From Propionibacteriaceae bacterium (GTDB lineage Bacteria; Actinomycetota; Actinomycetes; Propionibacteriales; Propionibacteriaceae): a DNA stretch of 64,000 nucleotides. The translations under genes and the position numbers were made by a program. This document shows positions 22,316 to 43,772 of this stretch, piece after piece (the stretch's first letter is position 1; each line of letters begins with the position of its first letter). The notes under the pieces are model-generated. The model worked only from the letters and a program-made list of their open reading frames with translations. It had not been told where the DNA came from and searched no databases. The DNA lies in NCBI GenBank assembly GCA_009782915.1, contig WRIC01000009.1, positions 26,154-90,153 of the forward strand. Direction: 5' to 3'.

Positions 22316-22936
22316 ATGCCTGCTGTCGAGCCTCAACTTTTGGAAACCAGAAAGATTCACTACGTACGTTTGGTGGTGAACTGGATTAATTTGTCTACTC
22401 CTTTTGGTTTGCTGATTTCGGTGATTGGGCGAGCGAAACTGTCGAAGGGGCCCCAGGGGTTGATTCTGGCTGATGGTTACAAGTTTTCTTTTCCGATTGC
22501 GAGTGCTTTCACGGTGGGTAATGTCATCATCACCGCATCGAATTTCACAAGGTTCACTGCCCGACTTCCGCAGGGTTTGGTTCATGAGGCCCGTCACTCA
22601 ACCCAGTGGGCTTTCTTTGGGCCACTATTTCTTCCGCTCTATACTCTGTCGATGGGTATCAGCTGGCTGTGGTCGAGAGACCGGGCAGCGTTGAACCTTT
22701 TCGAGATGCATGCAGGACTCGACGATGGGGGTTACAAGAGGTTTGTGAGAAAACCACGCAACAGCAAACGAGCTCAAGAACGTGCAAGTCTCACAGATGC
22801 CACCACGCAGCTCGCCCACAGTGGTCAGGTCGCTTCAACGCTACGTACTGAAGTTGAGACCATGACTCAGGAGCCTACTAACCCGGAATCCACTAACCCA
22901 CCGAGCACACCAGTGACAGATCATCGGTGTGATTAA
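22316..22936 (+). CDS. Conserved hypothetical, probably membrane-associated
   Basis: I do not recognise the family with certainty. The 206-residue product begins at ATG 22316, with an extended -10-like TGTGATAAT just upstream. Residues 20-50 include a weakly hydrophobic stretch. HEARHSTQWAFFGPLFLPLY near residue 90 combines a His-rich motif with a hydrophobic segment, reminiscent of an amphipathic or membrane-inserted peptidase-like helix, though no full HExxH zinc motif is present. The last 40 residues are Thr/Pro-rich and disordered. The 3' end overlaps the convergent LCP gene by 44 bp. Confidence 0.65.
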   Translation: MPAVEPQLLETRKIHYVRLVVNWINLSTPFGLLISVIGRAKLSKGPQGLILADGYKFSFPIASAFTVGNVIITASNFTRFTARLPQGLVHEARHSTQWAFFGPLFLPLYTLSMGISWLWSRDRAALNLFEMHAGLDDGGYKRFVRKPRNSKRAQERASLTDATTQLAHSGQVASTLRTEVETMTQEPTNPESTNPPSTPVTDHRCD

Positions 22937-24365
22937 CCAGGTCGGGGGTGGGGTCTGTGGTTGGTTCAGGATCATCCGGTTCGTTGGATGGTCCAGCAGA
23001 AGAGTCAGTGGATGCCGCCGAGGGGTCAGCGGTAGCTGCCATAGCAGCTTGAGCATCGAGTTCTTCTGACTGGTCGATGGTTGTTTTCACGACCAATTGA
23101 ATATAGGAATAGTCGGGATTACCGGTGTTGATCAGTGGTGGTGTGAACGAGACAGCGATCATGGGCAGGGACTTGGCTTGAACAGCTAAATCCACCATTT
23201 CGGACACATTCCATGGCGGGATGGAGGTGGTCGCCATTTCTTGGGAGGCAGCTGCCATGGAGGTGAATTTCACGGCAACAGTGGAGGGGTCCATTTGGCT
23301 GAGCACTGCTGCCATCACACATTTTTGGCGCTCCATTCGTGAATAGTCGGAGGTGGTGGACCGCGAGCGGGTGAACCACAACACCTGATGTCCGTCGAGG
23401 TGCTGGCTGGGCCCGGCTTCCAACCATTCGGTTTCTTGTTTGTTGATGGGTACGCGCTCGTGAATAGTGATCGTCAAACCACCCATGGCGTTGATGAGGT
23501 CTTTAAACCCTTGCATGTTGATCATGACATAGTAGTTGATGGGTAGCCCTGTGATTCCACTGACCGCCTCCATGGTGGCTTGGATTCCTGGGTTGTCGAC
23601 ACCAGGATACAGATCAGCATGTTCCTCACCGAGCAGATAAACAGCGTTCAACATGCAGTCGTCGGATCCACATTTCCAGCCGTCAGGATAGAGGTTCCGC
23701 AGTGGTGAGCCTTCAGCAAAGGGTACGCTTTGGAGGTTGCGGGGCAGGCTAAACAACACAGTACGCCCAGTGTTACCTTGGACGCTGGCGAGCATGATCG
23801 TGTCGGGTCTCACTCCCGTACGCCCAGGTCCGGAATCGGAACCCAACAACAGGATGTTGTAGCGTCCTTTGTCTTTGGTGGAGTTTCCACCGCCTGAGAA
23901 TATTCCCGACAGTGCACCGCCTGCACTCCAGGTTGCAGCCCCAGCCCAGGCCGTACCGGAGGCGAGAACTGCTGCCATCACAAGGGCAACCACCGAGAAC
24001 ACGGCACCTTTCTTGGCTCCCATGTTTTTGGGGCGCGAAATCCACCACGTGTTGATCGCGAGTCCCAGCCAGAAGATTCCCAGAGCGAGAACAGTCACAG
24101 AAACGATCTTCAACACCAGGCCATTGGCCCAAAATCCCACCATGGCTTTGGTGAGCGCCAGGGAGAGGATCAACAACACCAGTGCCACCACGAGCACGAA
24201 CATCCACAGTTTGAGAGCGAAACGCCCCAGGTTTTTGTTGCCATGGATGGCTTGGGCTGATCCGGGGACGAGCAGACCGAGTCCGAGCAGGGTGTATCCG
24301 CGCCTGGTGGCGACAACCTCACTGCGATGGGAGATCTCCAGATATTCCTCCACCTGGTCAGACAT
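22893..24365 (-). CDS. LytR-CpsA-Psr (LCP) family glycopolymer ligase
   Basis: LCP enzymes transfer polyprenyl-linked glycopolymers to peptidoglycan outside the membrane. The start is ATG 24365 (MSDQVEEYLEI), giving about 490 residues. Several N-terminal hydrophobic segments come first (LGLGLLVPGSAQAI, LWMFVLVVALVLLILSLAL, KIVSVTVLALGIFWLGLAI, SVVALVMAAVLASG), more than the usual single anchor. The catalytic LCP domain follows: ILLLGSDSG, GVRPDTIMLASV, SLPRNLQSVPF, LWFTRSRSTTSDYSRMERQ. A Pro/Asp/Ser tail ends the protein. It is monocistronic here and unlinked to the other LCP gene at 42.3 kb. Confidence 0.92.
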   Translation of the reverse strand: MSDQVEEYLEISHRSEVVATRRGYTLLGLGLLVPGSAQAIHGNKNLGRFALKLWMFVLVVALVLLILSLALTKAMVGFWANGLVLKIVSVTVLALGIFWLGLAINTWWISRPKNMGAKKGAVFSVVALVMAAVLASGTAWAGAATWSAGGALSGIFSGGGNSTKDKGRYNILLLGSDSGPGRTGVRPDTIMLASVQGNTGRTVLFSLPRNLQSVPFAEGSPLRNLYPDGWKCGSDDCMLNAVYLLGEEHADLYPGVDNPGIQATMEAVSGITGLPINYYVMINMQGFKDLINAMGGLTITIHERVPINKQETEWLEAGPSQHLDGHQVLWFTRSRSTTSDYSRMERQKCVMAAVLSQMDPSTVAVKFTSMAAASQEMATTSIPPWNVSEMVDLAVQAKSLPMIAVSFTPPLINTGNPDYSYIQLVVKTTIDQSEELDAQAAMAATADPSAASTDSSAGPSNEPDDPEPTTDPTPDLVNHTDDLSLVCSVG

Positions 24366-24441
24366 GATGCTCCATTCTGTTGACGTACCCCAGTATGGAG
24401 GAACCACCGCGCCCGCCCAAGCAGGCACGCCGGAAGGGAAG

Positions 24442-28966: not shown

Positions 28967-30358
28967 TCAGATTTTCTTGTTATAGGGTTTCCTGGTATTC
29001 CAAAGAAATTTCTGTGACAACTGGTCTAGTCGATTAAAGATGCGATATTGCACCACATAGGGCCACATACGTTTTTTAAAATAGTGCCAATCATCGCGTC
29101 GAACAGCTTCCTGATAGTGGATATGGCTCCACCTAGCCATATCACTACGGGTGTCTTGAATCTTCTTCCTAAAAAAGGAAATCATCTTGCTTGACGGCTC
29201 AACTCGCTTCAGTGGAACCCAATTTCCTCTCTTGTTTTGCCTTTCCAACCTATAAGCTAATTCTTCTCGGTGTCGGACAAGCCCACCTTGAGAACGAAGT
29301 AAAGTTTCCTCGTCAAGTGCAGAAAGCTGGACATTGCCACAATCCATCTCCTGATTAATGAGTTCTAGCAACTCTGAATTGCGAACAATGATGACGTTAT
29401 CACCTCGTTGATCGTCAACATATTCTGGTAGCCACGCATCGCCCAGAACTATGTCTGCATTTTCATTGAACACATTGTCCGTGAAGTCTGAGAACTTTGT
29501 CTTGAAGAAACCATAAGCCCAGGACGCCGCATAGAGTTCGGTTTGAGTTCTGCAGAACGAGACCTTCTGACCATCGACATTACCTGTAAATCTTGTCAGA
29601 TATTGGTTGGACTTCCCAGCGTCGTTTTTGACGCGAAATTCTATATCATGTAAAGCGCCTGGCCTAATTCCATGTTGCCAAGCTAGGCACTCCGCATATT
29701 TCATGCTTTTCTGATGACCACAAATCAACCCGATTGTGTATACGATTCTCTCCTTGAACAGAGCATCGATTTCCTGTAATAAGCGGATCTCCGTAATGAA
29801 TTCTGGAATTCCAACAATGGCGTACCGCCCTGGCATTTCTCTAACTGTCTTGAGCACGTGGGAGAGTTCAACTGGGTAGTAGCGCGACTGGGAACCCAAG
29901 AGGATTTCCGAAACGGAACGGGAAATATCATATTGGAAAAGCACTCCGTCGTTTCCTGTGGCTTTCCTAACATGGACGGCCCCATCGATTCTCCCTGTCT
30001 CCATCAATTTCGCGAGAATCCAGGTTCCAAACCCACCAGAACTCCCATGCTTTCTATACTCCCCCTCAATCACATGACCAGCAAACAGGGCATGATAGAA
30101 GCCGAGAACTCTATGATACCTAATTCCTTCCGCTTTGCCATAGTTATTCTCAGCTAGCTGATATTCGTTAGGCGATGCGTCAGCCATCATGTCTACCAAC
30201 GATTCTTCGCTGCTCTGTTCTTGGGCGTGCAGATACTCATATTGCCCAAATTGGTCAATAGCCATTGCAACATCGTCATCGACGACCGCACGAATACCAC
30301 TACGTACTGAATAGCTATCTCGGGTTTTCCCTGATTCTGAACCGACGTTGTGCTCCAT
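28967..30358 (-). CDS. FrhB/FdhB-like (coenzyme F420 hydrogenase beta C-terminal family) polysaccharide-locus protein
   Basis: Proteins of this family are flavin/Fe-S oxidoreductase-like and recur in exopolysaccharide loci beside pyruvyl transferases; their reaction there is not established. GSSGGFGTWILAKLMETG, VGIPEFITEIRLLQ, GLICGHQKS and NADIVLGDAW match the family's conserved blocks. The N-terminal CxxC-type ferredoxin ligands are absent, and the usual GTPCQ motif reads GIPEF, so Fe-S clusters are unlikely. The start is uncertain: ATG 30358 is chosen, and ATG 30388 or 30403 are alternatives. AT-rich relative to neighbours and divergent from ugd. Confidence 0.75.
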   Translation of the reverse strand: MEHNVGSESGKTRDSYSVRSGIRAVVDDDVAMAIDQFGQYEYLHAQEQSSEESLVDMMADASPNEYQLAENNYGKAEGIRYHRVLGFYHALFAGHVIEGEYRKHGSSGGFGTWILAKLMETGRIDGAVHVRKATGNDGVLFQYDISRSVSEILLGSQSRYYPVELSHVLKTVREMPGRYAIVGIPEFITEIRLLQEIDALFKERIVYTIGLICGHQKSMKYAECLAWQHGIRPGALHDIEFRVKNDAGKSNQYLTRFTGNVDGQKVSFCRTQTELYAASWAYGFFKTKFSDFTDNVFNENADIVLGDAWLPEYVDDQRGDNVIIVRNSELLELINQEMDCGNVQLSALDEETLLRSQGGLVRHREELAYRLERQNKRGNWVPLKRVEPSSKMISFFRKKIQDTRSDMARWSHIHYQEAVRRDDWHYFKKRMWPYVVQYRIFNRLDQLSQKFLWNTRKPYNKKI

Positions 30359-30579
30359 ACCTTCATCGTACCTAAACAGGAAAGGCATGGATTTGTGGAT
30401 CATCAACAATGATATTTCTTCTACACTTGAAGAACTCCCGACATTTCATTTTCGAGAATGCCTTTTCGCAAACTGAGCAGCCTCGTCTAAACGGTAACGA
30501 CATCCATCACTTGATCCATGAGTTAATGATCCATCCACTATGCTGGAATTTCTCAACAGATTCTGGAGGGAAACTACGA

Positions 30580-31746
30580 ATGGATATTGCTGTCTTTGGG
30601 GCCGGGTATGTTGGTTTTGCCAACGCAATTGTCCTTGCCCAACACAATAGAGTCATTGTCGTAGATATCGATCCTGCCAAAGTCGCCTCGATAAATAATG
30701 GTAAGTCACCTGTCCATGAATCAAGAGTTAATGAGTTCCTGGCCGAAACAACATTGCAACTCAGGGCAACCACTGAAATTGCCGAAGCGGTTTCCTGCGC
30801 TTCTGTTGTCATCATTGCCACACCCACTGATTATGATCTTCAGACAGGCTTCTTTAACACATCTACAGTGGAGCAATGCATCAATCAGACTCTTCAAATC
30901 AATCCTCAAGCAATAATTGTCATCCGCTCGACTATTCCTATTGGTTTCACTTCTTCGATGCAGAAAGAGTATGAGTCACAATCAATTTTCTTTGTTCCTG
31001 AGTTTCTTCGGGAAGGTCAGACGCTCCAAGACAGCCTGTATCCCTCTCGCATCGTCATAGGAGGTGCGCCTCATCAGAGCCAGAAGGTGGTTGACCTTTT
31101 TCTCACCTCGTCGCGCAATCAAGACGTACCTGTCCTGCTAACCGGTCCACGAGAAGCCGAGGCAATTAAACTGTTTTCCAACTCCTATCTCGCTCTGCGT
31201 GTTGCCTATTTCAATGAAGTTGACACCTATGCAATTTCTGAAGAACTCAATGCAGGTGAAATTATTACCGGGATAGGGCTGGATCCTCGAATTGGTGCCC
31301 ACTATAACAATCCATCTTTCGGCTATGGTGGTTATTGTCTACCTAAGGACACCAAACAGCTACTTGCCAACTATTCCGGAATCCCGCAGGATCTCATTAG
31401 TGCTGTAGTGGAATCGAATAGCACCAGAAAGTCTTTCATCGCATCTGACATCCTTTCTCGACACCCCCAGACAGTCGGCATTTTTCGTTTGATTATGAAA
31501 GTAGGCTCAGACAATTTCCGCTCATCGTCAATCTTTGGGATCATTGAGAGGTTGCGACCATCTGGTGTCAGTATTATCGTTTTCGAGCCCAATATCGATG
31601 ATGAAACGGTTGCCGGCTGTGAAGTGGTCACAGACATTTCTACATTCAAACAACGAAGCGATCTGATCGTCACCAACCGAAGATCACCAGAGCTCGATGA
31701 TGTGCAAGACAAGGTATATACCCGTGACCTTTTTGACAGAGACTAA
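30580..31746 (+). CDS. ugd: UDP-glucose/GDP-mannose dehydrogenase family, likely UDP-glucose 6-dehydrogenase
   Basis: Oxidises a nucleotide sugar to its uronic acid for polysaccharide synthesis. ATG 30580 follows GGAGGG by 9 nt and opens directly on the Rossmann motif MDIAVFGAGYVGFANA; the track's 57 extra residues are rejected. The 388-residue product has VFFVPEFLREG-like substrate-site residues (FFVPEFLREGQ), the hinge LFSNSYLALRVAYFNEVD, and the catalytic Cys in FGYGGYCLPKDTKQL. It is the only rightward gene of the locus and ends 24 bp from the convergent flippase. The short length matches the UDP-glucose class. Confidence 0.9.
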   Translation: MDIAVFGAGYVGFANAIVLAQHNRVIVVDIDPAKVASINNGKSPVHESRVNEFLAETTLQLRATTEIAEAVSCASVVIIATPTDYDLQTGFFNTSTVEQCINQTLQINPQAIIVIRSTIPIGFTSSMQKEYESQSIFFVPEFLREGQTLQDSLYPSRIVIGGAPHQSQKVVDLFLTSSRNQDVPVLLTGPREAEAIKLFSNSYLALRVAYFNEVDTYAISEELNAGEIITGIGLDPRIGAHYNNPSFGYGGYCLPKDTKQLLANYSGIPQDLISAVVESNSTRKSFIASDILSRHPQTVGIFRLIMKVGSDNFRSSSIFGIIERLRPSGVSIIVFEPNIDDETVAGCEVVTDISTFKQRSDLIVTNRRSPELDDVQDKVYTRDLFDRD

Positions 31747-31770: not shown

Positions 31771-33303
31771 TCAATTTTCATCTGATTGTCTTCTCATCTG
31801 ATCAGACGTCCGCCTGAGAAGATCCTTAACCTGTTTTCTTTCCTCACCCTGCATAGTGATTCTCCATGTAGCCCATGAATAGCAAGCAGTAAAAACAAGA
31901 CCAACTACTGCAAATAAGGAAAGTGAATTGATGTCAATAATGGTTTCACATATCCAGAGAAATACACCAGTGCATACGAGGGCAACCAGGAGTGTCTTCC
32001 ACATCGAGCTCCAGAACTTCACCATATTCAAACCCATCCGTGCATGGTAATACCAGTTCATAGCAAGACATGGTCCAAGCACCATGATCACGCAGTATCC
32101 CACAGTGGCGCCCAACGCACCCATGTGAGGAGCAAGCATCCAACAAACCATAGCACCCAGGAGTGCTGATATCAAATAGACTATGGAGCGAAATTTGTGC
32201 CTATTTTTTGCCTGCTGAATGGCGATTCCAACATTCTGAACCAAAGGAATGGTCGTGATCGCTGCTAAAAGAATGACCATCTGATACGTGGAGCTGAATT
32301 CCTCACCTGCCCACATAGTAATAAAGAAGCGCCCAGTGATAATAAATCCGCCCAGAAGAAGAAAATGTACCATAAGTTGATATCTCCCAACTCTCATCAT
32401 GAGGCTCAAAAGGGAATCATTGCTTGCATCTTTTGCCACCATGAAATTGACTCTGGGTGTGAACACATTCGACAAGGCAGTGGACACTGAAAAGAACAGG
32501 TGGCGAAACAAGAAGGCAACTGAAAATAGCGCGACATCTGCCGAACTTGACCTTGACGCAAGTATGAAATTGGGCGCATTGTCAGAAAAAATATTAAATA
32601 GGAGCGACAAGAATACCCAGAAAGAAAAGGATGCAATTTCTCTCAGGAGATGGAATCTAAATGGGAAAAACTGAAATTCCATTCCCAGGCGCTTGGCGAA
32701 AAAGGCAGTCCAAGTCAATGACATGAAAGTCGAAATAGTTGTTGCCAGAGTTGCGCCAAAAGCGCCAAACCCAAACAACAGGAGCACAATCCCCAGAATC
32801 GTCCCCCCCAGTCTCATGCAAATAGCGATCCCATATAACGCTTTAAATCGTTCGTGGACAAGCAGATAGCTACTGAACACCGAGGAGGGAAAAGTCATAG
32901 CCACATTGATAGTCATGAGAACCATGAGCCTTTTCGCCAACACGATTTCTGCTGGGCTTAATCCGCCACCAAAGAGACCTTCAGCAAAGAAAACTATGAG
33001 TCCACCTCCAACACACGCTAGAAGGCCCATAAAACAAAAAATGATGAGGTACATCCCATTGAGATTGGATATTCCTTGAGAATCGTTCTTTACTCTAAGT
33101 CGTGTGTAGAACCGAACGTAGGCAACTCCAAAACCAAAATTCAAGATGAGAAGGGCAGAGATAACTGAATCCGACAGTCTATAAACCCCATATTCGTTTT
33201 GCCCTAAGACTCTAATAACAAATGGGGTGTAAAGAAGTGCGACAACATTTGACACTGCGACATTGGCATAGGCAAGCACTGCTCCTGATTTCACCTCAGA
33301 CAC
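31771..33303 (-). CDS. Wzx-like polysaccharide flippase
   Basis: Moves lipid-linked repeat units across the membrane. The 510-residue protein is hydrophobic throughout with about 12-14 membrane segments and the family's opening SGAVLAYANVAVSNVVALLYTP (first part). GQNEYGVYRLSDS matches the conserved GxxxYG motif. GTG 33303 has GGAG upstream. It is the last gene of the leftward polysaccharide run, 57 bp after the pyruvyl transferase. Base composition is AT-rich, like its neighbours. Which glycan it flips cannot be told from sequence. Confidence 0.88.
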   Translation of the reverse strand: MSEVKSGAVLAYANVAVSNVVALLYTPFVIRVLGQNEYGVYRLSDSVISALLILNFGFGVAYVRFYTRLRVKNDSQGISNLNGMYLIIFCFMGLLACVGGGLIVFFAEGLFGGGLSPAEIVLAKRLMVLMTINVAMTFPSSVFSSYLLVHERFKALYGIAICMRLGGTILGIVLLLFGFGAFGATLATTISTFMSLTWTAFFAKRLGMEFQFFPFRFHLLREIASFSFWVFLSLLFNIFSDNAPNFILASRSSSADVALFSVAFLFRHLFFSVSTALSNVFTPRVNFMVAKDASNDSLLSLMMRVGRYQLMVHFLLLGGFIITGRFFITMWAGEEFSSTYQMVILLAAITTIPLVQNVGIAIQQAKNRHKFRSIVYLISALLGAMVCWMLAPHMGALGATVGYCVIMVLGPCLAMNWYYHARMGLNMVKFWSSMWKTLLVALVCTGVFLWICETIIDINSLSLFAVVGLVFTACYSWATWRITMQGEERKQVKDLLRRTSDQMRRQSDEN

Positions 33304-33360: not shown

Positions 33361-34464
33361 TCATAGCGACTCGGCATCCGTGATTGCTCGATCTATCACC
33401 GCACTCAACCATCCCATGCTATCTGCACGCCTTTGATTCAGTATGCAATTCACCGAGTCGAAATTTATTGAATAAGCAATGTCACTCACGCTCGAGCCCC
33501 CTCCCCATTGGCATATTTCTAGCCCGAAAGCACGCAATAGGGTGATAACACGTGAATTCATGCCATCCCCGTCGGATCGAGGTCCAACCACGACTGGTCT
33601 ATTCATGATGATGCTAAAAACAAGACCGTGAAAGGAATCGGTCACCACCAGGTCAGCCTTCGACACAGCATGTACGAATTCAGCTGGGGTTAGTGCAACA
33701 TGGCTGGAATGAAAATGGTCCCCCATGACATCGAGAATTCTTGCTCCCGTATCGCGAGAATACTCCAAAATCCTTTCCCTAATTTCTGAGTTTGCTTCTC
33801 GTAGATGATAAGAAAAAATGAATGGCTCCTCAGGAATGCGATGATCTGGAGGCAATTCAAGTGACAACCATTCTTCAGGAGAAAGTAGCATTGTGGGGTC
33901 CAGAACAACCTGAGCATTGCGCCCGGTCAGCGACTCAACAATCTCAGCTGCGGATTCTTCTCTGACAGAAATGTGTTCAATACCACTAAGCCAGTTGATA
34001 TAGGAAGCACGCTTTTCATCAGGAATGGTGGAAACACCAAAGCTGGCAGCATACGCCACTCTTTTCCGCCGTGGAGCAAACTGCAAAAACATCCTGCTAC
34101 TTGTGCTTGTTAGATGAGGATTCCAAACTTGATCACTACCAACGATGAAGCAATCAACAGTCTTGAACCAAGATTTCGCAGTAAAAACAGAGAGATATCG
34201 TTTGGTGGGAACATATTGCCGTGAGAATCTTCGAAAAGCAAGCCTCTTTGCTTCTGTTGCCAGACCCCATGGCGTGCCGAATAACCGATGATACCACTGG
34301 GCAATTGCCCGCCTGGCACTCCTAAGAAAAGTGGATTGTGAGTAAAACTCAATCATCGTTGCGTCGTGGTCCAATTTGACTAAAGCCTGCGACAAAGCGT
34401 AAGCCTGCAATCGATTCCCGTAGTTCCTTTCACTGGGTAGCGTCAGCACAACAATTCGGGCCAT
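33361..34464 (-). CDS. Polysaccharide pyruvyl transferase family protein
   Basis: Family members add pyruvate ketals from phosphoenolpyruvate to surface sugars. The 367-residue product starts MARIVVLTLPSERNYGNRLQ, has the conserved FIVGSDQVWNP near residue 115, YAASFGVSTIP, SVREESAAEIV, VVLDPTMLL and the C-terminal VVTDSFHGLVFSIIMNRP. It is separated from GT2 by one base. In many bacteria this gene pairs with the FrhB-like family, also present 3 kb away. The acceptor sugar is unknown. Confidence 0.9.
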   Translation of the reverse strand: MARIVVLTLPSERNYGNRLQAYALSQALVKLDHDATMIEFYSQSTFLRSARRAIAQWYHRLFGTPWGLATEAKRLAFRRFSRQYVPTKRYLSVFTAKSWFKTVDCFIVGSDQVWNPHLTSTSSRMFLQFAPRRKRVAYAASFGVSTIPDEKRASYINWLSGIEHISVREESAAEIVESLTGRNAQVVLDPTMLLSPEEWLSLELPPDHRIPEEPFIFSYHLREANSEIRERILEYSRDTGARILDVMGDHFHSSHVALTPAEFVHAVSKADLVVTDSFHGLVFSIIMNRPVVVGPRSDGDGMNSRVITLLRAFGLEICQWGGGSSVSDIAYSINFDSVNCILNQRRADSMGWLSAVIDRAITDAESL

Positions 34465-34465
34465 G

Positions 34466-35449
34466 CTATACCTTTTCTTCTCGGGAATGATGAAGATTCG
34501 TTCGTCGTTGCTTCTTCACCGTATTGGATATCGGACAAAACAAAAACTCAATAGTATGAAGGAGAACCTGCATTAATCCGCCCAATGCGCTTCTTCGGGT
34601 TTTTGCAGAAACTGGATGTTGCACCACCAGCCTCATGATTGTTCTCACAGCGCCATAATTCTTCAGCAATAACCACCAACCTGCTCTTACTGAAATCCTC
34701 ATGGTTTTTGCAGTGGACCTATAGCCCTGAGACACTGCAATCAAACCTTCAACATGTTGATCTGCTGGTCTACTAGTCATTGTTGAGTTTGAATGGAGTC
34801 TTCGATTGAAAAGTATTCTGTCAAGATGCCCGCACCTTTTGGCAGAAAGAATTGCCTGCACAGTATAAAGTTCATCCTCCCGAATAATCCCTTCCGGAAA
34901 AGTCAGCTTATTATCAATGATGAAATCTCGTCGAGTTATGTACATACATGGCTGAACACGAAATTCTCGACGCTTCATCATTTCAGCGAAGAGATCCGAT
35001 CCTTTCCACACCCCTGGATACGATGTAATCCTCTGATAAAGCTGGGGGCAATTATGCTCTTCCTGACCCGACAAATCATCAACAGTAAAGGTGTTGCCAT
35101 CAAAGAACAGTAAGTCGTAGTCGTTAGCAGTCATTTCATTTATACACTCTTCTGCAAATGAAGAATCAATGTAGTCATCTGCATCAAGAAAGTAGATGAA
35201 TTCCCCTCGTGCTAACTCCATCCCGCGGTTCCTGGCCGCCGCCTGCCCTTGGTTTTTCTGACGATGTAATTGCACCCGATTATCTTGATCAGAGATCTGT
35301 TGAACAATTACTGCACTGTTGTCACTTGAGCCGTCGTCTATGCAGATGACTTCCATATTGACGCATGTTTGTTGTAGCACAGACTGGATGCACTGGCCTA
35401 CATAAGATGCAACATTGAAAACTGGAATGATTACCGACAGCTTAATCAT
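34466..35449 (-). CDS. Glycosyltransferase family 2
   Basis: GT-A fold transferase extending the lipid-linked repeat unit on the cytoplasmic face. The 327-residue protein begins LSVIIPVFNVASYVGQCIQS, with the nucleotide-binding ICIDDGSSDNS, QGQAAARNRGMELA and the metal-binding FLDADDYID. The C-terminus is basic and mildly hydrophobic, suggesting membrane association. It overlaps the upstream Wzy gene by 4 bp and is one base from the next gene, so the operon is tight. Donor and acceptor sugars cannot be assigned. Confidence 0.92.
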   Translation of the reverse strand: MIKLSVIIPVFNVASYVGQCIQSVLQQTCVNMEVICIDDGSSDNSAVIVQQISDQDNRVQLHRQKNQGQAAARNRGMELARGEFIYFLDADDYIDSSFAEECINEMTANDYDLLFFDGNTFTVDDLSGQEEHNCPQLYQRITSYPGVWKGSDLFAEMMKRREFRVQPCMYITRRDFIIDNKLTFPEGIIREDELYTVQAILSAKRCGHLDRILFNRRLHSNSTMTSRPADQHVEGLIAVSQGYRSTAKTMRISVRAGWWLLLKNYGAVRTIMRLVVQHPVSAKTRRSALGGLMQVLLHTIEFLFCPISNTVKKQRRTNLHHSREEKV

Positions 35450-42317: not shown

Positions 42318-43772
42318 TTACCCTCCCAAGGTTTGGCGAATCTTTTGCTTGGCAGTGTCCACGGTTGCCTGATTCGGAACCATCACATATAGCCTTTGAC
42401 CAGGATAGGTGTAGGTGTAATCCATTGCACCCACCCCATCGACACTGATCGTCTCAATATCCCAATCCTGCCCAGAAGAGAGCTGGGTTTTCACCTGGGC
42501 TGAGATCGCTGAGCGTGGCATCGAGGTTTCCACAGAACCCTCCACAGCACTCAAAATCCGGTCATACCTGGCCAAAACCGACGGATCAGTGAGCCGGTGA
42601 ATGATCCCCACGATGACCCTCTGCTGGTTTTCACCGCGAACCCGATCACCACCAGAAAAACTATAGCGATTACGGCAAAAAGCCAACGCTGCTTCACCGT
42701 CGAGATGATTCATCCCCACCGTGAACTTGTAGCCATTTTGACTGAAGGCGTACGCCGAATCCACATCAATACCACCCAAAGCATCAACCACTGTGATCGT
42801 TGAGCTGAAATTCAAGCGCAGATAGTAGTCGATGTCGATGTCATAGAGGTCTTCCATAGTTCCGATTGACACCCCAATACCGTACACACCGGCGTGGGTA
42901 AGCTTATCCCTCAGCCCTGTCGTACCACGAAATTGTACGTAGAAGTCACGCGGAGTGTTGACCAAAAGGATCTGGCCACTCTCCGGATTAACAACCATCA
43001 ACATGTTCACATCGCTACGGGAACGCGAACTAATCGACCCATAGGTGTCAATCCCGCTGATATAAACAACATAAGGTTGATCAGGTTGCTGGGTGGGAGG
43101 GGCCGGCGGTGGGGCCACCCAGTTGGCATCCACGTCGACCGTGGCCAAGATCACCAGTTTGTCGTATGATTCCTCATCAGCATCCTCCAACACCTGCATC
43201 AAGGCATCCTGGATCACCATCGATCTAATCTCCCCTGAGATCACCTCCTCAACCATGTTGACCCAGGTGGGACTCGGGGTGAAATCCACCTCCACCAGTT
43301 TCACGACCTCATCACGTACTGCTTGGCCCAAAGGATCACTGCCCACCTCAGCCATGAAAGACCCACTCAGGTCAGACAATTCCAGGGAAGCCGACGATAG
43401 CGCCACAATGTCGTAAGCGACTGTCTCAGTGGTGGGAGCCTGAATATTCGAACTGAAACGAAGATAATCCACACCCACCTTGACCATGGCGCAATTCGAG
43501 ACAAACAACAAGAAAGCCATCATGGTGGCCATCGTGAATCTCACCTTATGGATCTGCGGGCGAGACCGCAGCAAAACGAAAGCCAACACGCATGCGAAAA
43601 CCAGCTCAATGACAATGATCGATAAAAGCGCCGACGTGGGCAACACGCCCATCAGCAACAGAACGACGATCACGACCACACTCGACAGCCCCACCACACC
43701 AGCGATCGCTAGAGAAACCCGTGGGAATCCTGGAGCCTCATCCTCCCGAATATCATCGAAGATATCAGTCAC
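42318..43772 (-). CDS. LytR-CpsA-Psr family ligase next to the polysaccharide operon
   Basis: Probably attaches this locus's glycan to peptidoglycan. The 484-residue product has three N-terminal membrane helices (VSLAIAGVVGLSSVVVIVVLLLMG, ALLSIIVIELVFACVLAFVLL, MATMMAFLLFVSNCAMV; partly shown), an accessory region, then the LCP domain: YVVYISGIDTYGSI, RSDVNMLMVV, LVNTPRDFYVQFRG, LDGEAALAFCRNRYSFSGGDRVRGENQQ with the key Arg residues. GTG 43772 overlaps the malQ stop as GTGA. It lies 81 bp ahead of the dehydratase, so it may head the same transcript. Confidence 0.93.
   Translation of the reverse strand: MTDIFDDIREDEAPGFPRVSLAIAGVVGLSSVVVIVVLLLMGVLPTSALLSIIVIELVFACVLAFVLLRSRPQIHKVRFTMATMMAFLLFVSNCAMVKVGVDYLRFSSNIQAPTTETVAYDIVALSSASLELSDLSGSFMAEVGSDPLGQAVRDEVVKLVEVDFTPSPTWVNMVEEVISGEIRSMVIQDALMQVLEDADEESYDKLVILATVDVDANWVAPPPAPPTQQPDQPYVVYISGIDTYGSISSRSRSDVNMLMVVNPESGQILLVNTPRDFYVQFRGTTGLRDKLTHAGVYGIGVSIGTMEDLYDIDIDYYLRLNFSSTITVVDALGGIDVDSAYAFSQNGYKFTVGMNHLDGEAALAFCRNRYSFSGGDRVRGENQQRVIVGIIHRLTDPSVLARYDRILSAVEGSVETSMPRSAISAQVKTQLSSGQDWDIETISVDGVGAMDYTYTYPGQRLYVMVPNQATVDTAKQKIRQTLGG

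Follow-up and report, generated by a model that had tools for sequence, protein, structure and literature searches.

What does an FrhB-like flavoprotein do beside a polysaccharide pyruvyl transferase (PPT) once most ligands of its iron-sulphur clusters have gone? The question is raised by a gene of a Propionibacteriaceae bacterium, found in a 64,000-nucleotide stretch of one contig (hereafter the window; Table 1). It forms the edge of a minus-strand polysaccharide locus with genes for a glycosyltransferase, a PPT and a flippase, and a divergent UDP-glucose dehydrogenase gene lies between the flippase and FrhB-like genes.

Table 1. Genes of the locus and codons of interest in the FrhB-like gene, in window coordinates.
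Feature	Position	Strand	Basis
Cys-less FrhB-like flavoprotein, proposed enolpyruvyl-ether reductase	28967..30358	-	PF04432 + PF04422, AlphaFold2, PDB fold matches
Codons S307 to T310, in place of the CDxC ligand pair	29480..29491	-	Ser 18/18, Thr 17/18
Codon C230 (LICGH), sole former ligand kept in all 18 Cys-less proteins	29720..29722	-	invariant 87/87
Codon E203, site of the GxPC proximal-cluster cysteine in relatives	29801..29803	-	alignment
Codons S34 + S37, site of the first two CxxCxxC cysteines in relatives (distal cluster)	30299..30310	-	alignment, 87 relatives
UDP-glucose 6-dehydrogenase (UDP-glucuronate supply), divergent	30580..31746	+	TIGR03026 324 bits, cut-off 189.8; Pfam UDPG_MGDP_dh
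Flippase (Wzx type)	31771..33303	-	Polysacc_synt PF01943
Polysaccharide pyruvyl transferase (PPT), proposed enolpyruvyl transferase partner	33361..34464	-	PF04230 118.8 bits, cut-off 25.3, E=5.6e-34
Glycosyltransferase family 2, same locus	34466..35449	-	PF00535 E=1.7e-33

An FrhB fold without most of its cluster ligands

The open reading frame (28967-30409, minus strand) encodes 480 residues if translation starts at TTG 30409, from which residues are numbered here, and 463 from ATG 30358. PF04432 and PF04422 both match above their curated cut-offs (FrhB_FdhB_C, 78.6 bits against 23.3; FrhB_FdhB_N, 60 bits against 22), which places the protein in the FrhB/FdhB family. An AlphaFold2 model based on a 51-sequence alignment (pLDDT 92.5, pTM 0.91) retains the FrhB fold, and all 21 Foldseek matches in the PDB at E<=0.001 belong to the FrhB family, among them FrhB, Fsr, HCAR and the best match, 8riu_B (E=2.1e-19). 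The family fold that an earlier sequence-only reading had recognized is thus borne out. Pfam finds FrhB domains only, with MurB_C and FAD_binding_4 absent, and the likeness to MurB proposed below would be one of mode of action, not of membership. The FAD-site motifs GSSGG and [SK]xYYP are conserved, and the GG helix and Lys/Arg-Tyr loop motifs are invariant in the alignment; the protein is presumably an FAD protein.

In BciB the distal cluster is bound by C25, C28, C31 and C43 and the proximal cluster by C171, C195, C259 and C262 (PMC13297055), and for FrhB the cysteines are C104, C134, C192 and C195 (PMC3591093). Alignment assigns the equivalent positions of a Klebsiella plasmid relative (L035) to C20, C23, C26 and C65, and to C196, C223, C296 and C299. 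The window protein lacks seven of these eight cysteines for two [4Fe-4S] clusters. The ferredoxin motif CxxCxxC reads S34-x-x-S37-x-x-R40 and the CP cysteine is also missing, so that none of the four cysteines of the N-terminal CxxCxxC...C, the BciB/HCAR-type distal cluster, remains. GxPC has become GIPE (E203) and CDxC has become S307-x-x-T310, leaving the proximal cluster one of its four ligands, C230 of LICGH. The loss of the iron-sulphur cysteines, including the GIPE change, had been read correctly from the sequence, but the retained C230 and the conserved polar replacements had been overlooked.

All eight cysteines are present in 69 of the 87 proteins compared and the motif is lost in 18, the window protein among them. 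C20, C23, C196, C296 and C299 (L035 numbering) are lost in all 18, and C26 and C65 appear as isolated letters in a few rows; C223, which is C230 of the window protein (LxCGH), is invariant throughout. Since the ligand sets are either complete or lost, each cluster is fully equipped or dismantled. The vacated sites, among others, hold conserved Ser, Thr, Asn, Gln and Glu in the Cys-less proteins. One may speculate that C230, near the flavin, serves as a proton donor or has a structural role.

A single-sequence search of genome contigs with the window protein gave no relatives; an alignment-based query gave 411, the best 80 of which were kept. The 18 Cys-less proteins form one clade (SH-aLRT 99; clade support 99-100) in a tree computed with the ligand columns removed and rooted on distant Cys-type proteins. 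This clade is nested among Cys-type proteins, its neighbor being a Bacillota/Bifidobacterium group (weaker support, 83), and spans Bacillota, Actinomycetota and candidate phyla. Its hosts, among the best 80 of 411 relatives, include Lactobacillaceae, Aerococcaceae, Carnobacteriaceae, Amphibacillus, Microbacterium, and Saccharibacteria and Nomurabacteria MAGs. Outside the ligand columns, seven columns divide Cys-less from Cys-type proteins by the criteria used, five of them within five residues of a ligand. The replacements C296S, A304N and G373E are fixed in 18 of 18, and C299T and L226Q are found in 17. Pairs within the clade have dN/dS of ~0.07-0.2, with dS near saturation in some. Conserved replacements near the ligands together with low dN/dS argue for a remodeled site rather than decay, and both clusters appear from these comparisons to have been lost in one event, the proteins staying intact since.

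A different arrangement is found on a Ruminococcus albus plasmid (L142:7751-9228), where the FrhB-like protein is short, having no ferredoxin part, and the next gene encodes a separate 4Fe-4S dicluster protein, as if the missing part had been split off into its own gene.

The polysaccharide locus and the partners of PPT

GC content is ~0.45-0.47 at 30-38 kb of the window against 0.54-0.59 farther out. None of 18 same-genus genomes has a relative of the FrhB-like gene, and two same-family genomes have distant Cys-type relatives only. Low GC and absence from the same-genus genomes indicate that the polysaccharide module was probably acquired. The UDP-glucose dehydrogenase, whose start at 30580 is inferred from an HMM match beginning at residue 58 of ORF 30409-31746, is of the short enterobacterial type (best NCBIfam PRK15057, 500.5 bits against a cut-off of 757); this is unusual for an actinobacterium and the gene was probably acquired. 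The locus lies between two genes for LCP-family glycopolymer transferases (22893-24428 and 42318-43772, both on the minus strand), which suggests cell-wall attachment of the polysaccharide. The window PPT is the only PF04230 match in the host genome, and no solved structure was found among its relatives by sequence.

Nearly every member of the FrhB-like family has a PPT within a few genes, and usually a flippase too, in the order flippase-FrhB-PPT or PPT-flippase-FrhB. The repeated pairing with pyruvyl transferases suspected earlier therefore holds, both in the window, where PF04230 confirms the PPT, and in relatives. Among the best 80 of 411 relatives, the two nearest to the window protein are themselves FrhB-PPT fusions (L041, 849 aa; L042, 856 aa), and a Cys-type FrhB-PPT fusion of 1018 aa is found in Marinibacterium (L141). 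The occurrence of FrhB-like genes in polysaccharide (EPS) loci has been published as an uncharacterized link (PMC10267222).

Is the reductase beside PPT always an FrhB-like protein? Plasmids were searched with the window PPT and 19 neighborhoods were read; 15 hold an FrhB, a MurB homologue or a nitroreductase, and a recognized reductase was not found in four. The order PPT-flippase-nitroreductase is seen in Enterococcus faecalis (L124) and L. plantarum (L128), and PPT-flippase-MurB homologue in Levilactobacillus brevis (L130). A MurB homologue directly follows PPT in Cetobacterium (L127), Novosphingobium (L129) and the archaeon Natrinema (L131), and a nitroreductase lies two genes on in Allorhizobium (L136) and within the PPT region of E. 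coli plasmid p30COLEC-2 (L126). Pfam and NCBIfam support these assignments, with most MurB-like proteins scoring below the MurB equivalog cut-offs. Fusions recur here as well: PPT is joined to a nitroreductase in Gemmobacter and Paracoccus (L139:4947-7562 and L144:2381-4930), and to a complete MurB-type reductase in an 845-aa protein of Paracoccus aestuarii plasmid pAES7 (L143:2417-4954). The MurB-like partners align at the catalytic Arg and Glu; four of five also do so at Ser, where the fifth has Thr.

The window PPT belongs to a 25-member clade (support 99) in which PPT is partnered by FrhB of either type, Cys-less or Cys-type, by MurB or by nitroreductase. Sister PPTs with differing reductases include L046/L124 (98), L106/L130 (96) and L129/L136 (100), in a quick tree under a simpler model whose individual joins are approximate. 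Such repeated swaps imply that the reductases do one job. Among the Lactobacillales read, a small and query-biased sample, Trichococcus palustris has the only clustered form in the PPT slot.

Several of these neighborhoods have features of their own. In Natrinema pellirubrum (plasmid L131:6001-12623) the MurB homologue after PPT is near a UDP-glucose dehydrogenase gene; to our knowledge, haloarchaea such as Natrinema have no peptidoglycan for MurB to serve. On an L. plantarum plasmid (L140:5675-6805) a 376-aa protein with no Pfam match occupies the third position of the PPT-flippase-X order and could be a further reductase type. Insertion sequences break up the polysaccharide island of p30COLEC-2 (L126:5540-13101), in which two pyruvyl transferases and the nitroreductase are accompanied by a 153-aa remnant similar to the C-terminal part of FrhB-like proteins.

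A proposed lactyl-ether route and its alternatives

Bacteria make the muramic acid of their cell wall through an enolpyruvyl ether, which MurA forms and MurB then reduces to a lactyl ether. Given this chemistry and the presence of MurB among the swapped partners, the most economical reading is that PPT delivers an enolpyruvyl group which is then reduced to a 1-carboxyethyl ether. Phosphoenolpyruvate would be the donor of the enolpyruvyl group, which PPT would place on a single hydroxyl of a lipid-linked sugar that may be glucuronic acid. Reduction of the C=C bond by the FrhB-like protein, the counterpart of MurB acting after MurA, would leave a 1-carboxyethyl (lactyl) ether, and the flippase would then export the unit. 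Of the single observations, the PPT-MurB fusion of pAES7 hints most clearly at enolpyruvyl reduction. We put the probability that the window protein is a cluster-free, FrhB-fold FAD enolpyruvyl-ether reductase, acting as the partner of PPT in surface-polysaccharide synthesis, at roughly 0.5. More tentative, and somewhat short of an even chance, is the wider proposal of a route parallel to MurA-MurB, in which PF04230 PPTs act as enolpyruvyl transferases while four types of flavin reductase, namely clustered FrhB, cluster-free FrhB, MurB homologues and nitroreductases, have been exchanged as their partners, and the Cys-less pocket has been rebuilt with polar residues around the kept cysteine.

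How would such a protein receive its electrons? BciB takes them from ferredoxin via its clusters (PMC13297055), and the Cys-type relatives probably do the same through two clusters. With the ligands lost, the Cys-less clade is unable to use this path; hydride would probably pass straight from NAD(P)H to FAD, as in MurB, which is the simplest option, although no NAD(P)H site was identified in the Cys-less FrhB-like protein. An F420 enzyme was rejected for this host, since its genome (93.5% complete) has no CofE/FbiB match and its sole CofD-family match is YvcK by TIGR01826. The earlier doubt about redox chemistry is therefore upheld for cluster-dependent electron transfer but not for redox chemistry in general: the flavin motifs are intact and the slot is otherwise filled by flavin reductases such as MurB and nitroreductases, and this favors cluster-free hydride chemistry at the flavin. 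A role in glycan modification that dispenses with the cluster, as had been suggested, fits well.

Among known systems, the window protein shares fold, both Pfam domains, FAD-site motifs and the LxC cysteine with FrhB, the N-terminal part of Fsr, the 8-vinyl reductase BciB and HCAR, and BciB likewise reduces a C=C bond (PMC13297055). Unlike these proteins, it has no distal cluster, has lost three of four proximal ligands, and belongs to a PPT polysaccharide locus in a host without F420 ligase. MurB is alike in the proposed reaction, from enolpyruvyl ether to lactyl ether, and its homologues share the operon slot and one PPT fusion, but sequence and fold are unrelated and the expected acceptor is a polysaccharide precursor rather than UDP-GlcNAc. 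The nitroreductases occupy the same slot and are also fused to PPT, but are of a differing family (PF00881). The ketal-forming WcaK of colanic acid synthesis is a PF04230 protein, as is the window PPT, but the wcaK neighborhood has no flavin reductase; a WcaK-type pathway yields a ketal where the window locus would yield a lactyl ether.

Other explanations have to be set against an enolpyruvyl-ether reductase. The flavoprotein might act on the sugar itself, by keto-sugar reduction or in a redox-neutral flavin reaction such as that of UDP-galactopyranose mutase, so that pairing with PPT reflects a common sugar and not one reaction sequence. Its location among sugar genes, adjoining a nucleotide-sugar dehydrogenase, would suit such an activity, but linkage and fusions are specific to PPT and we know of no MurB homologues that are sugar-ring enzymes; we regard this as unlikely. 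We also doubt that the protein is a non-catalytic partner which supports or regulates PPT while an ordinary pyruvate ketal is made. All cluster wiring is gone and the fusions imply close physical association with PPT, yet GSSGG, [SK]xYYP and the LxCGH cysteine are conserved, and a scaffold role leaves unexplained why the other occupants of the slot are active-type flavin reductases.

Continued use of a cluster, through other ligands or a separate ferredoxin partner, is very improbable. One cysteine is invariant and the R. albus plasmid has a separate 4Fe-4S protein gene after its FrhB-like gene, but that relative keeps the proximal cysteines, whereas the Cys-less clade has S, T or E at the seven of eight ligand positions that are lost. 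That the gene is an artefact or in decay (start error, frameshift, pseudogene) is hardly credible. It lies on a low-GC insert absent from the same-genus genomes, but the reading frame is full-length and under purifying selection, and the same loss in 17 relatives of other species, united with the window protein in one well-supported clade, is not chance and led us to reject a sequencing, start or frameshift error. The sequence-only reading would have fallen to such an error in a Cys-bearing family; the tree of Cys-less members and their neighbors that it called for instead gives one clade with recurrent PPT pairing.

Consequences and known lactyl ethers

If the proposal is correct, PPT with a flavin reductase would signify a lactyl ether and PPT alone a pyruvate ketal. 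This rule would explain both the uncharacterized FrhB-EPS link and 1-carboxyethyl sugar biosynthesis, and would allow gene content to predict glycan structures in part. The window protein would also be a natural example of an iron-sulphur flavoenzyme turned iron-free, a form possibly suited to hosts like lactic acid bacteria. The literature searched gave no mention of a cluster-free clade, concerted replacement, fusions, interchange with MurB and nitroreductase, or a lactyl-ether hypothesis, which is not proof of absence, and no paper was found in open PMC text that explains how 1-carboxyethyl sugars such as nosturonic acid are made.

Lactyl ethers of Aerococcus viridans, Butyrivibrio and Cyanospira are not used as evidence here, since the literature search gave no confirmation of them. 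Vibrio alginolyticus has 3-O-lactyl glucuronic acid (PMC5983295). The Klebsiella K22 polysaccharide contains 4-O-[(S)-1-carboxyethyl]-D-glucuronic acid; in K37 only the acetylation is different (PMC3857182). Of 79 Klebsiella types, K8, K22, K37 and K66 combine a PPT gene with a lack of pyruvate, and two nitroreductases and one F420 hydrogenase occur among the 79 as a whole (PMC4616057). These PPT-without-pyruvate types and reductase genes fit the proposal at the level of the set; no paper was found that assigns the nitroreductases and the F420 hydrogenase to particular types. In the E. coli genomes, where O-antigen structures are known, the Klebsiella gene has no DNA match. In Nostoc commune the sugar is 3-O-[(R)-1-carboxyethyl]-D-glucuronic acid (PMC6017307), and Nostocales are among the hosts of the FrhB-like family in the best 80 of 411 relatives.
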